This document shows, piece after piece, positions 22,162 through 37,894 of a stretch of DNA of 64,000 bases (positions within the stretch are counted from its first letter, which is position 1; every line of letters starts with the position of its first letter). The notes below the pieces were generated by a model, which saw only the letters and a program-made list of their open reading frames with translations, was not told where the DNA came from and did no database searches. The stretch spans positions 1 through 64,000 of the forward strand of contig NZ_AQXX01000110.1 in the NCBI RefSeq assembly GCF_000376785.1, given 5' to 3'. Made by a program: the position numbers and the translations under genes. This DNA comes from Hahella ganghwensis DSM 17046. GTDB taxonomy: Bacteria > Pseudomonadota > Gammaproteobacteria > Pseudomonadales > Oleiphilaceae.

Positions 22162-23373
22162 ATGAACAAAGGGTCGACCGGTTGGTCTCATGGCAACCGG
22201 ACAGAGCAGGAGAACGAATTCCATTCTGCTCTCGAACACCAACGGGATCGGGATCTGGCTATCCGTCAGAAACCCGGAATCATTTTTTATCCTGTTGTCT
22301 GGCTGATGGTCACACTGGCCATACTCAGCTATCAACCCAGTAACGCGAAAGCAGCCTGGCTGATAGGGATCGGCACGTTCATCATCCTCTCCTCACTTTA
22401 CCGCCTATACAGTACACGTAGATTCGCCGCCAAACTTCAGTCAGGTCAACCCGTTTCCTTGTGGTTACTGACTCACGCGATCATTATCAATGCAGCCAGT
22501 TGGGGGCTGTTCCTGGTCCTGGCGTTATTACCGACACCGCTGTCAGAACATTACTCACTCATATTTACCGGCACCCTCGCTCTGGCAGCAGGCGGAGCTA
22601 ATTCCCTATCCATCAAAACACGGCTGGTCTACTGGCTGATGTTTTCTCTACTGGGGCCGGCCATCATCGTTTCATTGAGTGGCTATTCCCTGATGCCCGC
22701 CCCTCTTGGACTGCTCCTGCTGGTTTTTGCCGGAGGAATGACATGGGTAAGCAGCCTGCCCCGAAAGGAATACGAAAAGGCTGTCATCAGCAACCTCAAG
22801 TTGAGTCACCAGGCCAACTACCTGACCGAGCTCACCACACTGGATGGATTAACCGGAGTTAAAAACCGACGTTTCTTCGATCAACTTCTCAGTTCAGAAA
22901 TCCGAAGAGCAAATCGCCTGGAGTATCCACTGGCGTTACTGATGATCGATATAGATCATTTCAAACGGATCAACGATGAATTTGGTCATATTGTGGGCGA
23001 TAGCTGTCTGATTAATACAGCTAAAACACTCCAAAATCACATCCAGCGTTCCAGCGATGTGGTGGCGAGATATGGCGGGGAGGAATTTGCCGTCATCCTA
23101 CCTGGCGTAGAAACCGAGGACGCCATCGCACTGGCTGAGACTCTTCGGGTCGAAGTGGAATCCACCATTACCTGGAACCTGACCCAGCCGATCCGGGTTA
23201 CTATAAGTATAGGCGGCGTGTCTTTGTTACCCGTAAAATCCACGCAGCCCCAGGATTATCTGGCAATGGCAGATAAAGCCTTATACGAAGCCAAAAAACA
23301 GGGAAGAAACTGCATTTACTGGTCGCACGGAGACGGCAGCATCAAAAGAGTGTCGGAGAAAGGTGACGACTAG
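22162..23373 (+). CDS. Membrane diguanylate cyclase (GGDEF domain)
   Basis: A 403-residue protein with about six transmembrane helices in residues 35-210 and a C-terminal GGDEF domain. The active site reads RYGGEEF, and an RxxD inhibitory site (RSSD) lies five residues before it, so product inhibition by cyclic di-GMP is expected. The conserved DIDHFKRIND and DKALYEAKKQGRN segments are intact, so it should make cyclic di-GMP. The membrane part is not a recognised named sensor. The ATG at 22162 is preferred over a GTG four codons earlier, though neither has a good ribosome site. It converges on the AraC gene at 23435. Confidence 0.88.
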   Translation: MNKGSTGWSHGNRTEQENEFHSALEHQRDRDLAIRQKPGIIFYPVVWLMVTLAILSYQPSNAKAAWLIGIGTFIILSSLYRLYSTRRFAAKLQSGQPVSLWLLTHAIIINAASWGLFLVLALLPTPLSEHYSLIFTGTLALAAGGANSLSIKTRLVYWLMFSLLGPAIIVSLSGYSLMPAPLGLLLLVFAGGMTWVSSLPRKEYEKAVISNLKLSHQANYLTELTTLDGLTGVKNRRFFDQLLSSEIRRANRLEYPLALLMIDIDHFKRINDEFGHIVGDSCLINTAKTLQNHIQRSSDVVARYGGEEFAVILPGVETEDAIALAETLRVEVESTITWNLTQPIRVTISIGGVSLLPVKSTQPQDYLAMADKALYEAKKQGRNCIYWSHGDGSIKRVSEKGDD

Positions 23374-30608: not shown

Positions 30609-31100
30609 CTAACCGAGTGATTTCACCATGCGGATTTCGCAGGCGGAATGACCAGTGCAGCCCAAGGGGTCATCTATTTGCCTGAAACCCATTTTTTTGT
30701 ACAGAGCGATTGCTCCGGACAAAGCTTTTGTGGTTTCCAGATAACACTGCCGGAACCCGTGTTTGGTGGCATACTCAAGGGTCAGGCTGGCCAACTGAAA
30801 CCCCAGCTGATGGCCTCGACACTCAGGAAGAAAGTACATTTTCTGTAGCTCTGCCGTATTCGGATCGCCCTTCAAAGGGGCTATCCCACCACCTCCATAA
30901 ACCAACCCAGCTCTCTCAACAACCCAATAGGCAGCGCCAGCAGACTGATAGGATTCGAACATACGGTCTACACCGGGATCACAGACACCATAACCGGACT
31001 CCCCAACCAGACCAAATTCAGCAGATACGTCTCGTATAATTTGTCCTATTCTGAGGTTGTCAGAGGGCGCGATCAGGCGAAGTTTGAAGACTGATTCCAA
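30609..31100 (-). CDS. GNAT-family N-acetyltransferase
   Basis: A 163-residue acetyltransferase. The GNAT fold shows in VYGGGGIAPL, the acetyl-CoA-binding loop LQKMYFLPECRGHQLGFQL, and the C-terminal CYLETTKALSGAIALYKKMGF. The start is TTG at 31100 with an AGGAG site eight bases upstream. The substrate is unknown. It converges closely (20 bases) on the AEC transporter. Confidence 0.87.
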   Translation of the reverse strand: MESVFKLRLIAPSDNLRIGQIIRDVSAEFGLVGESGYGVCDPGVDRMFESYQSAGAAYWVVERAGLVYGGGGIAPLKGDPNTAELQKMYFLPECRGHQLGFQLASLTLEYATKHGFRQCYLETTKALSGAIALYKKMGFRQIDDPLGCTGHSACEIRMVKSLG

Positions 31101-31273
31101 GCAGATACTCCTTTTAACACCAGTTTATGGCGCTTATTTACCGAAGACAGGAGGAAAGCTTACGATAAAAAATCAGAGACGGGTATACAGAGAATGACAG
31201 AGGCAACGGCGAAAGGAAGGGATTCCGAAATATAGCTAATATTACGAAACAGGGAAAAATAAATTTTGGGATA

Positions 31274-31303
31274 AAAAAAACCGGAAGACATGGTCTCCCG
31301 GTC
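31274..31303 (-). terminator. Orphan rho-independent terminator on the minus strand
   Basis: On the minus strand ACCGGGAGAC and GTCTTCCGGT pair (one mismatch) around a CAT loop and run into eight T residues. On the plus strand only A residues precede it, so it works leftward only. No protein gene on the minus strand lies to its right before malT, so it implies an unannotated minus-strand transcript. Confidence 0.82.
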
Positions 31304-31333
31304 ACAAAGTCACGGTCTCACTCTTACCCCACA
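31274..31333 (-). ncRNA. Candidate small RNA ending at the orphan terminator
   Basis: The orphan terminator at 31274-31303 needs a transcript entering from the right. On the minus strand a promoter-like pair, TTGATA (31362-31367) and TATATC (31340-31345) with a 16-base spacer, would start an RNA near 31333 of about 60 nt, carrying GGGTGTGGGG and a GTGAC direct repeat before the terminator hairpin. The start is a guess; a longer transcript antisense to the malT leader is equally possible. The gap 31101-31715 contains no other gene I can support. Confidence 0.4.
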
Positions 31334-31656
31334 CCCGTTGATATACATATAAGGAGAAGCATATCAAACAACCATCAAAGGCAAGAATTGAAAACACGCT
31401 GTCGTATACACAGCGCACATTATGTTGATCTGACACCTTTTGCGCAATACGCACAATCCGCAAAATCTAGTAAAAATACCAAACTTCGTCACAAACGCGT
31501 AGAATCCTCGGGTTTATTGCAAAAGTGCCATATAGAAAAGAATGGTACATACACTGGACTGCTCTCTTGACTGGGAGACTACATATAGTCAGCTCAGTCC
31601 TGTGAAGTACGAACAGTTCGCTGTAGGTCGACCAGGTTATTTGCTAAAGTTCTGGT

Positions 31657-31715: not shown

Positions 31716-34472
31716 ATGACAACTAAAATAAAACCCGAGTCACGAACCTTGATTAGAGCGAAGATTTTACCTCCGGCAGCTCCCTCCCACCTGCTGCAGA
31801 GAGACAAGTTTGATGAACTGTTGCAGGAATCGGAACCGGCCAGTCTGATTCTGGTCCAGGCTCCGGCAGGTTACGGCAAAACCACCACCGTGGCAGACCG
31901 TCTTGCAACACTGGATGCCCGATGTGCCTGGTTTCGCCTCGACGAACAAGACAATCTCAGTGAGCAGTTTGCTTTTTACCTTGCCCATACACTGGATGAG
32001 GCAACAAATGGTGCCTGTAGTGAGACAATCAAATCTCTGACGGGGCAAAACTATCCCAATCTTCAGACTTTTCTGACTGATCTGCTTTCGGAGCTACCTC
32101 TGGAGGGAGAACCTCTATATCTGGTTCTGGATGATTATCACTTGATGACCAATCCCGAGATTCACGAAGGAATTGCCTTTCTTCTGCGTCATCATCCCTC
32201 ATACCTGACCTTGGTTTTGCTGACCCGAACCACACCACCTATCGGCATTGCCCAGTTGAGAATGCAGGGAAGAATGCTGGAGTTTTCCAGCAGGGATCTG
32301 TCATTTACTGCGGATGAAGCCCAGCAATACCTGGATAACAGGTTACGGTTTGAAGTGTCCCGGGAAAATATTGAGCGGGCCAACCGCCGGGTTGAAGGTT
32401 GGGTCTCTGCGCTACAGTTGCTGGCCTCCACCGCCAGTACCAGTGCCGAATTCGGCAGTTACGTGGATCAGTTACATCAGGGTAATCAATACATCTTCGA
32501 TTACTTCGATGAGCTGCTTCGCCACACTGTCACCGAAGAACAGCGTCATTTTCTGCTGAGAACCAGCGTCCTCGACCGCTTTAACGCCTTTATGGTGATG
32601 CGTATCGCAGATCAGACTGAAGGGCAGGCGTTACTGGTAAATCTGTTGAACATCGGGCTGTTTATTGTCCCTCTCGACCAGAGCGGCCTGTGGTTCCGGT
32701 TTCATCCGCTGTTTTCGGCTTATCTTCGCCATATGCAAAGCTGCATACTGCCACAGGAGACTCGCAGCCTGCATCAGCGAGCATGCGATGCCTGGCAGGA
32801 GCTCAACATGTATGAAGAGGCCGCCCACCATGCGGTTCTCTCCAAGGACCAGGAACGCATCACGAATATTCTGCTGAAGCAGGGTCGGGAGTTCTTTAAA
32901 GAAGGCCAGTTCAGTCTTCTGCAGCGTTGTTTTGATGGTCTGGACCGGTCGATTATCGCGGACCAACCTGTGCTGACGCTTTTAAGAGCCTGGGTGGCCC
33001 AGGGGCAATATCAATTCAAGGAAGTAGAGAGCTGGCTGAAAGCGGCAGAGGTGCGACTTCAAGGGCATTGCAGTGAAGACGAGTGGAATGCCATTGTCGG
33101 TGAGTTCAATGCTGTCCGCGCACAAGTTGCCATGAACCTGGATAATCCTGGACAGGCAATGGAGTACGCCAAAGTTTCGATGACCCACGAACCGGTTTAT
33201 CTGCCTACATCGAAGATTGCAGCCTCTTCAGTTTATGCAGAATCACTTTTTGTGCAGGGACAGCTAAAAGAAGCGCTGTCACGCATGCAGGAAACAGAGC
33301 AATTGGCATTGGCCGAACACGCTCATCCCAATGTCATCTGGGCACTTTGCCAGCAATCAGAAATCAGTGTTGCCCAGGGCTACCTGCAAAAAGCCTACAA
33401 CATCCAGGAAAAAGCGCTCCAATATGCCGATGAGCACAATTTGCATCATTTGCCGATACTGGAGTTTCTCTACCGGATTCGCGGCCAGATCATGTGGGAA
33501 TGGCACCACCTGGAAAGTGCTGAAAAGTGTGCATTGAAAGGAATTGAGGTACTTGAGGCGCAGGGCGAGCGCTGGTTTATCCAGAACTACATCCTGCTCG
33601 CCAAGGTGGCACAGACCCGGGGTCGCCAATCCCTTTGTGCAGACTACGTTCAGAAAGTGCATAAGATGCTGGCATCCGGTGATTATCACATTGACTGGAC
33701 TGCCAATGCCCACGCAACCATGCTGACGTACTGGGACGCAGTCAGAGACCAGGACGCCATTCAGCGCTGGCTGACAGTGGCACCTGAATGCAATGCTCAA
33801 TCAACGACGAATCATTTTACCCAGTGTAACGCCCGTAACTGGGCCCGGGCTTACATCAGCCTTGGCAACTACGATATGGCGCTCCCCATCCTGACTGGCA
33901 TCCAGCAGGTGGCTGAGCAATATGGTCTGCAAACCGACTGCAATCGAAACCTGATACACCTGGCCCAGCTACACTGGCAGAATGACAACAGGGAGCTGGC
34001 CATGCAGCACATGGCTGAAGCCTTAAAACTGGCCAGCACCACTGGTGCCGTTGGAAGTTTCCTCCGAATAGGTAAAGTCCTGATCAATATTCTTAAAGCG
34101 CTGATCAATGACAATCACCTGGACGAAATGGAGCAGCAGAGAGCAGAACGCCTGATCCAACTCTCTCAACAACAGCGTGATTTCAGCCGTGCCATACGGA
34201 TTACACTGGATGAGGCCATCATCCAGGACATTATCGACCGGCCGGATGTACCGGAACTTATCAGGACCTCGCCTCTTACCCGTCGTGAATGGCAGGTTCT
34301 CAGTCTGATTCACGCCGGATTGTCCAATGATCAGATCGCCGAGCACATGAAAGTGGCGCCCACTACGGTGAAAACCCATATTCGAAGTCTTTATCAAAAA
34401 CAGAATATTACCCATCGCTCGGAAGCCATTGAGCTGGCTAGAAATCTGCTCAGTAAGATCCAGGGGGAGTAG
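31716..34472 (+). CDS. malT: Maltose regulon transcriptional activator MalT
   Basis: A 918-residue STAND-class activator (E. coli MalT has 901). A Walker A motif APAGYGKTTT lies near residues 49-58 and a Walker B-like LYLVLDDYHLM near residue 135; winged-helix and TPR-like helical repeats fill residues 250-800; the LuxR-type DNA-binding domain (LTRREWQVLSLIHAGLSNDQ to VAPTTVKTHIRSLYQK) is at about 850-910. MalT is activated by maltotriose plus ATP and binds GGGGAKGAGG-like boxes, which occur before both the alpha-glucosidase-malK and malEFG operons here. It lies directly upstream of the alpha-glucosidase gene but 400 bases away. A wobble-containing hairpin at 34501-34523 lies just downstream. 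Confidence 0.92.
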   Translation: MTTKIKPESRTLIRAKILPPAAPSHLLQRDKFDELLQESEPASLILVQAPAGYGKTTTVADRLATLDARCAWFRLDEQDNLSEQFAFYLAHTLDEATNGACSETIKSLTGQNYPNLQTFLTDLLSELPLEGEPLYLVLDDYHLMTNPEIHEGIAFLLRHHPSYLTLVLLTRTTPPIGIAQLRMQGRMLEFSSRDLSFTADEAQQYLDNRLRFEVSRENIERANRRVEGWVSALQLLASTASTSAEFGSYVDQLHQGNQYIFDYFDELLRHTVTEEQRHFLLRTSVLDRFNAFMVMRIADQTEGQALLVNLLNIGLFIVPLDQSGLWFRFHPLFSAYLRHMQSCILPQETRSLHQRACDAWQELNMYEEAAHHAVLSKDQERITNILLKQGREFFKEGQFSLLQRCFDGLDRSIIADQPVLTLLRAWVAQGQYQFKEVESWLKAAEVRLQGHCSEDEWNAIVGEFNAVRAQVAMNLDNPGQAMEYAKVSMTHEPVYLPTSKIAASSVYAESLFVQGQLKEALSRMQETEQLALAEHAHPNVIWALCQQSEISVAQGYLQKAYNIQEKALQYADEHNLHHLPILEFLYRIRGQIMWEWHHLESAEKCALKGIEVLEAQGERWFIQNYILLAKVAQTRGRQSLCADYVQKVHKMLASGDYHIDWTANAHATMLTYWDAVRDQDAIQRWLTVAPECNAQSTTNHFTQCNARNWARAYISLGNYDMALPILTGIQQVAEQYGLQTDCNRNLIHLAQLHWQNDNRELAMQHMAEALKLASTTGAVGSFLRIGKVLINILKALINDNHLDEMEQQRAERLIQLSQQQRDFSRAIRITLDEAIIQDIIDRPDVPELIRTSPLTRREWQVLSLIHAGLSNDQIAEHMKVAPTTVKTHIRSLYQKQNITHRSEAIELARNLLSKIQGE

Positions 34473-34574
34473 GACCAGGTATTCACTCACCCCCCACACA
34501 GGGGAGGCTGCACAGGCCTCTCCTGATGTTGATCCCGCCTATCTCCTATCCATAGACGATTGCTCCGCCCCACC

Positions 34575-34630
34575 CCTCCTCCCTTCCTCATCCCTACTAC
34601 TACGCCAGGAAAAATAATGCAGGGAGGATG
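34575..34630 (+). promoter_or_regulatory. Cluster of MalT-box-like sites before the alpha-glucosidase operon
   Basis: Two sites on the minus strand, GGGAGGAGG (34575-34583) and GGGATGAGG (34586-34594), match the MalT box GGGGAKGAGG in all nine positions compared and start 11 bases apart, about one helical turn. A third, GGGAGGATG (34622-34630), on the plus strand has one mismatch. They lie in the 400-base gap 34473-34872 between malT and the alpha-glucosidase gene, about 240-300 bases before the latter. The rest of the gap is AT-rich and holds no gene. Confidence 0.65.
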
Positions 34631-36543: not shown

Positions 36544-37660
36544 ATGGCTAGTGTAACGTTACGCAATGTCTGTAAAAGTTATGACAGCATTGAAATTTCG
36601 AAGAATATCAATCTGGACATTGAAGACGGTGAGTTTGTGGTCTTTGTCGGTCCCTCAGGCTGTGGCAAATCCACCCTTCTGCGAATGATTGCAGGCCTCG
36701 AGGAAATCACCTCGGGAGACCTTTATATTGGGGAAGAGCGGGTAAACGACAAGCCCCCCATGGAGCGGGAAGTTGGCATGGTATTCCAGTCTTATGCACT
36801 TTATCCGCATATGGACGTGGCAGAAAACATGGCTTTCGGCCTTAAGTTAGCCAAAACCCCGAAACCAGAAGTTGAGACACGGGTCCAGCAGGCTGCCAGA
36901 ATTCTACAGCTTGAAAAACTGCTCGAACGCAAAACCCAAGGACCTCTCCGGTGGACAGCGTCAGCGGGTCGCTATTGGCCGGACCATGGTTCGTGAACCC
37001 AAGGTTTTTCTATTCGACGAACCACTTTCAAATCTTGATGCCGCTTTACGTGTACAGATGCGTATTGAGATTTCCAAACTGCACAAACGCCTGCAGAGCA
37101 CCATGATCTATGTGACCCATGATCAGGTTGAAGCAATGACCATGGCTGACAAAATTGTGGCCCTGGATCATGGTGTGGTCGCCCAGGTGGGAAGACCGCT
37201 GGAGCTGTACCACTACCCTGCCAACAAGTTCGTGGCAGGTTTTATCGGCTCTCCCAAAATGAACTTTATTGACGTTCAGGTGCGCTCAGCCAACAGCCAG
37301 AATGTGACTGTGTCACTTCCGGGCGCTGTTGAGTTAACGATTCCCGTGAATGGCGAAGGTCTGCAATCCGGCGACAAAGCCACTCTGGGTATCAGACCGG
37401 AGCATTTTGTTGAACGGGAACAAGCCGACATTGTCCTGAACGGCATGGTCAGCGTCGTTGAAAGGCTAGGATACCAGACTCTATTGCACACAGAGGTGGA
37501 AGGGTTTGATTCAACACTGACAGTCAGAACCCATGGCTCCAACCCCGTCCGGGAAAGTGAGGCCATTGCTTTGGGAGTCCAGGCTCAACACTGTCATCTG
37601 TTTAAAGAAGACACCAGCGCCTGTCCAAGGTTGTTTCGGGAACCTTCTGTCGATTTTTAA
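36544..37660 (+). pseudogene. malK: Maltose/maltodextrin ABC transporter ATPase MalK, split by a one-base insertion
   Basis: The first frame (36544 onward) gives [14 protein letters not shown], Walker [11 protein letters not shown], the Q-loop VFQSYALYP and runs correctly to LLERK. After the AAAA at 36931-36934 it goes out of frame and stops at 36996. The next frame (+1) continues exactly where family homology requires: [16 protein letters not shown], Walker B VFLFDEPLSNLD, THDQVEAMTMAD and the C-terminal regulatory domain to 37660. Deleting one A restores 371 codons, the length of E. coli MalK. As read, the product lacks the signature and Walker B motifs and would be inactive, disabling MalEFGK2 import unless frameshifting, slippage or a second ATPase rescues it. 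A sequencing error in the A-run is also possible. Confidence 0.9.
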
Positions 37661-37717: not shown

Positions 37718-37894
37718 TCAGCGCTTTACCCGGCTTTTCTGCCGGGTTTTTTTTGGTGTTTCCACCATCTCCGACAATAGTGCTTTGGCCCCGGAAAAGT
37801 CAAAGGAAGTCTCTTCTCCCAGTTGTTCCGGGTCAAATCGTATTCCACATCCCGCTTTCACAGTTTGGGCAGGTTCTGCCTGGCCTTTTTTCAT
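37718..37894 (-). CDS. Small basic hypothetical protein (58 residues)
   Basis: A minus-strand frame of 58 codons starting at ATG 37892-37894 with AAGGGG at good spacing upstream. The protein begins MKKGQAEPAQTVKAGCGIRF, continues through DPEQLGEETSFDFSG and ALLSEMVET, and ends in a lysine/arginine-rich tail. The composition is protein-like and the frame has a real ribosome site, so it may be a genuine small gene that converges on malK and overlaps its terminator. I do not recognise the family. The 294-base region 37755-38048 contains only this frame and the promoter of the next gene. Confidence 0.5.
   Translation of the reverse strand: MKKGQAEPAQTVKAGCGIRFDPEQLGEETSFDFSGAKALLSEMVETPKKTRQKSRVKR
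37728..37754 (+). terminator. Rho-independent terminator of the alpha-glucosidase-malK operon
   Basis: ACCCGGC and GCCGGGT pair around TTTTCT and are followed by seven further T residues. On the opposite strand this sequence encodes the C-terminal residues of a small minus-strand gene. Confidence 0.9.

Follow-up and report, generated by a model that had tools for sequence, protein, structure and literature searches.

A probable structured small RNA gene of Hahella that diverges from malT and carries its own terminator

The window analysed here, that is, the whole stretch of 64,000 nucleotides under study, covers positions 1–64,000 of contig NZ_AQXX01000110.1 (assembly GCF_000376785.1) of Hahella ganghwensis DSM 17046, whose genome (G000) was compared within a sample of seven Hahella genomes (G000–G006). 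The locus lies between two genes that point away from each other. On the plus strand, malT (31716–34472; NF003420 MalT equivalog, 1121.3 bits against a cut-off of 537) reads away from the element described below, and on the minus strand a gene for a GNAT-type acetyltransferase occupies 30609–31100. Upstream of the latter lies a minus-strand intrinsic terminator, formed by a stem-loop at 31279–31303 (an 11-bp stem with six G-C pairs and a 3-nt loop) and a run of eight T residues at 31273–31280 that would correspond to the 3′ end of an RNA. Folded alone, it reaches −16.6 kcal/mol (z −4.5), a value that none of 200 shuffles equalled, and no other minus-strand hairpin that precedes a T7 tract in the 64-kb window is as strong. 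An inverted repeat between the terminator and 31568–31579 was considered and discarded, as it is absent in G004. The open reading frames of the window include no minus-strand gene between the terminator and malT that could lead into it, which bears out the earlier description of an orphan terminator with eight T residues.

The terminator closes a much longer conserved block. A structured small RNA gene of approximately 142 nt is placed at 31272–31413 of the minus strand by model R1, whose match in G000 (31413–31272, 112.9 bits) is the only one in that genome; the 3′ end is given by the terminator and the 5′ end is the probable one discussed below. In the alignment of malT upstream regions the block is present as a single copy, on the strand opposite to malT, in six of the seven Hahella genomes, which fall into a close pair (G000 and G004) and a distant group (G001, G002, G005 and G006). 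The seventh, G003, lacks the RNA and has a different gene upstream of malT. Between G000 and G004 identity is 95% over the RNA, as against 60% in the malT-side flank and 56% in the downstream flank, and between G000 and the distant relatives it is 57–60% over the RNA, as against 33–40% in the flanks. The covariance search in relatives that the earlier note had suggested did reveal a conserved structure, and this structure extends beyond the terminator hairpin to the whole of the approximately 142 nt. A held-out covariance model built from the four distant copies only (R2) gives the copy of the window 44.8 bits, which corresponds to an E value of 2.7e-10 for the window and of 2.8e-8 for the entire genome; the runner-up in the genome has an E value of 0.63. 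A sequence-only model devoid of base pairs scores the same copy at 22.2 bits, so that structure contributes about half of the signal.

The minus strand from 31420 to 31271 folds with an energy of −52.9 kcal/mol (z −4.8; 0 of 200 shuffles equal). According to pair counts and alifold, its main element is a rod-like hairpin (31311–31398) with helices of 18, 8 and 7 pairs separated by small internal loops, and in the consensus structure derived from A2, the six-copy alignment, where the rod takes up columns 16–105 and is followed by the terminator, an unpaired linker (31304–31310) joins the two. In this consensus 91% of the cells are paired, compared with 39–56% when the partners are slid, a level that 0 of 500 shuffles attained. 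Alifold reaches −33.3 on this alignment, compared with −18.9 ± 3.2 after column shuffling (0 of 300 as good) and just −17.1 on the complementary strand, which assigns the fold to the minus strand. Eight base pairs are altered on both sides among the six copies, which form two tight groups and thus amount in effect to one deep comparison, and the RNAalifold covariation term is small (−0.13). The rod is conserved with compensatory changes, and the two groups have different loop sequences.

These features strongly support the existence of a minus-strand small RNA gene, on the basis of conserved position, conserved structure and compensatory changes. The small RNA that had been anticipated from the terminator is thus upheld as a predicted gene, with a length of approximately 140 nt instead of the 60 nt first proposed. 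It is very hard to reconcile this picture with a bare terminator or chance hairpin that yields no RNA product, given that conservation spans all 142 nt and is both structural and strand-specific, and equally hard to see a small peptide gene in it. A short frame does begin at an ATG in the distant group; its counterpart in G000, however, has 15 codons and no recognisable ribosome-binding site, and the amino-acid changes are accounted for by base pairs. No reading frame is conserved within the RNA, and a two-base difference in the loop between G000 and G004 shifts the frame.

The 5′ end is less sharply defined. The sequence and its alignment point to a candidate minus-strand promoter at 31419–31447, in which TTGCGC (31447–31442) and CATAAT (31424–31419) are separated by 17 nt and directly upstream of which TGCGTATTGC is conserved; transcription from it would start near 31412–31413. 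Over the promoter stretch (31414–31479) identity is 85% with G004 and 46–49% with the distant relatives, and CATAAT is a good −10 box in G000 and G004 only. Its lower strength in the distant group makes this a putative promoter, which may need an activator. The RNA would begin close to a dodecamer, TGTATACGACAG (31399–31410, minus strand), invariant in all six copies of A2, which could be either a single-stranded 5′ tail or the final portion of the promoter. Alternatively, TATACG within the dodecamer could be the −10 box, in which case the RNA would start at the base of the rod. Another pair of hexamers, TTGATA (31367–31362) and TATATC (31345–31340), with a gap of 16 nt, had been put forward as the promoter. 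These lie inside the RNA (31340–31367, minus strand), where they form the apical stem by pairing with each other; they are not kept in the four distant genomes, which have other paired bases there, they are not listed by the promoter scanner, and their role as a promoter was not confirmed. Separately, 17 bases identical to the promoter region of the RNA gene, TGTCAGATCAACATAAT, occur in G003, which lacks the RNA, at positions 23277–23293 of its contig C59 (L039), upstream of an apparent transporter ATPase gene; with an E value of 0.33, this match may be due to chance.

A stable structure followed by a terminator, ahead of a same-strand gene that starts approximately 100–170 nt beyond, is also the layout of an attenuator, and the RNA could accordingly form the 5′ leader of the downstream minus-strand gene and contain an attenuator or a riboswitch. 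A leader would be expected to keep its gene, yet G000 has the acetyltransferase gene at this place and the distant group one for an EamA-type transporter (translation inspected by eye; seen in L047). While the downstream gene swaps between genome groups, malT remains the neighbour of the RNA gene. Since the distant relatives have the transporter gene in place of the acetyltransferase gene, the RNA does not serve as the leader of the latter, and as Rfam gives no riboswitch match either, the leader explanation is considered improbable. Structure and position are conserved irrespective of the downstream gene, as they should be in a small RNA gene, and the element has an intrinsic terminator of its own, as is expected of intergenic trans-acting small RNAs.

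The position of the gene, on the strand opposite to malT and 300 nt upstream of its start codon, invites the idea, also raised in the earlier note, that the RNA is antisense to the malT leader, and it might then lower MalT. The alignment of malT upstream regions argues against it, since a likely extended −10 element of malT, TTTGCTAAAGT (31640–31650, plus strand), lies approximately 230 nt from the RNA on the malT side, between RNA and gene, so that the two transcripts would not overlap. All seven Hahella genomes share this element, G003 included. One duplex between the linker of the RNA and malT was found in G000 (P 0.005 among 24 tests), but it contains a large bulge and is absent in the other group. 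With these observations, antisense action on malT is highly improbable.

A wider influence on the maltose regulon had been suggested as well. The consensus of the MalT box in E. coli is GGGGAKGAGG. No sequence within two mismatches of it is found at the promoter of the RNA gene in the six genomes, and the sole near-box in the interval, which occurs in the distant group, lies a long way downstream of the terminator. Boxes that match the same consensus exactly or with one mismatch stand in front of the alpha-glucosidase gene in each of four genomes inspected; in the window, an array of MalT-box-like decamers (AGGGATGAGG, AGGGAGGAGG) lies upstream of that gene at 34571–34630, and the decamers are conserved as GGGGATGAGG and GGGGAGGAGG in G001 and G006. 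No conserved pairing was found between the RNA and the start regions of malT, the alpha-glucosidase gene or malK, and the complement of the invariant 11-mer at the 5′ end (CTGTCGTATAC), taken as a seed, has exact matches at no gene starts shared among the genomes. Lacking both a MalT box and conserved pairing, and with the malT promoter set apart from it, the RNA gene would therefore have, so far, a link to maltose that is positional only. Two further observations were made in this part of the window. The malK gene (36544–37660) has a frameshift near 36930 that splits it in G000 only; it is intact in G004, G001 and G006, and the split may be an assembly error or a genuine break. Just past malK, at 37747, lies the strongest plus-strand hairpin before a T7 tract (−18.4 kcal/mol).

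The RNA was also compared with known families. Neither the window nor the copies of the relatives match an Rfam family, riboswitches included. Spot 42 (RF00021) resembles the present gene in being a terminated intergenic small RNA of similar size. The best score for it is 26.9 bits, in the G006 copy (L046), as against a gathering score of 80; this sub-threshold match rests mostly on the terminator, the copy of the window gives no match, and none is found at an E value of 0.001 in 61 genomes of the family. Identity with Spot 42 was thus rejected. The long rod-like fold is shared with 6S RNA (RF00013), which binds RNA polymerase. Another proposal is that the same stand-alone RNA binds or titrates a protein through its conserved rod, in the manner of 6S RNA or as a decoy, instead of pairing with mRNAs. 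It has in its favour that the conserved part is precisely the rod with its compensatory changes, while the loops vary between groups, and that no conserved mRNA pairing target was found at the starts examined. As 6S RNA proper it is contradicted by the true 6S gene, located elsewhere in all seven Hahella genomes (89–107 bits), and by the lack of an Rfam 6S match here, and identity with 6S RNA was rejected; in its general form, it comes without a candidate protein partner. Overall, this proposal is rather unlikely. Aside from this locus, G001 holds a second 6S-like match below threshold (L078, contig C1, 5192830–5193005; 33.8 bits against a cut-off of 46.4).

Outside Hahella, a model search of 151 genomes of the family and 295 of the order returned no convincing copy. 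The weak hits in other genera of the family measure 68–94 nt and were rejected, since their alignments extend over no more than the terminator plus a few outer bases; the two hits at the level of the order are just as short. The best reading of the comparisons is a new, previously uncatalogued small RNA gene restricted to Hahella. A literature search on Hahella and small RNA brought up no study of small RNAs in this marine genus, and no transcriptome papers on Hahella were found either.

Taken together, the comparative data point to a stand-alone small RNA gene whose product is most likely a trans-acting, Hfq-bound pairing regulator (probability of about 0.7). RNA polymerase would start on the minus strand near 31413, probably from TTGCGC-17-CATAAT, and would transcribe approximately 142 nt until it stops at the terminator (31303–31273). 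Covariation indicates that the folded transcript would consist of a long rod preceded by a short 5′ tail and followed by a linker and a U-rich 3′ end; bound by Hfq, this RNA could pair in trans with mRNAs through the 5′ tail, the apical loop or the linker. Hfq is present in the seven Hahella genomes. Against a pairing role stands that the rod keeps most of the RNA double-stranded, with little sequence free to contact an mRNA, and that the gene starts examined showed no conserved target. Selection would then act on the RNA itself, and not on it as a leader of the next gene or as an antisense of malT.

Two small RNAs of Vibrio offer a useful comparison. Vsr217 comes from the 5′ region of malK, is driven by MalT and represses fbp (PMC8265627). 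Like the RNA described here, it is a small, genus-restricted RNA at a maltose locus that adjoins a mal gene (PMC8265627); it lies, however, on the strand of malK, with a MalT box and without an intrinsic terminator (PMC8265627), whereas the Hahella RNA diverges from malT, has its own terminator and shows no MalT box. The second case, MicX of Vibrio cholerae, is found at the 3′ end of malG and its known targets are not maltose genes (PMC1976385). MicX is independently transcribed next to maltose genes (PMC1976385), as, presumably, is the RNA of Hahella. MicX extends over the end of a coding gene and undergoes cleavage by RNase E (PMC1976385), while the Hahella RNA is intergenic.

The RNA gene is well delimited, and its fold and ends are precise enough for a northern blot. 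Its case cautions against naming a function from the neighbouring gene, here malT, and illustrates that an orphan terminator, one that no gene leads into, can point to a real RNA gene. Should the protein-binding rod turn out to be true, which we regard as a minor prospect next to mRNA pairing, the RNA would represent a new, rod-shaped family of regulatory RNA that is restricted to Hahella and that binds and titrates a protein.
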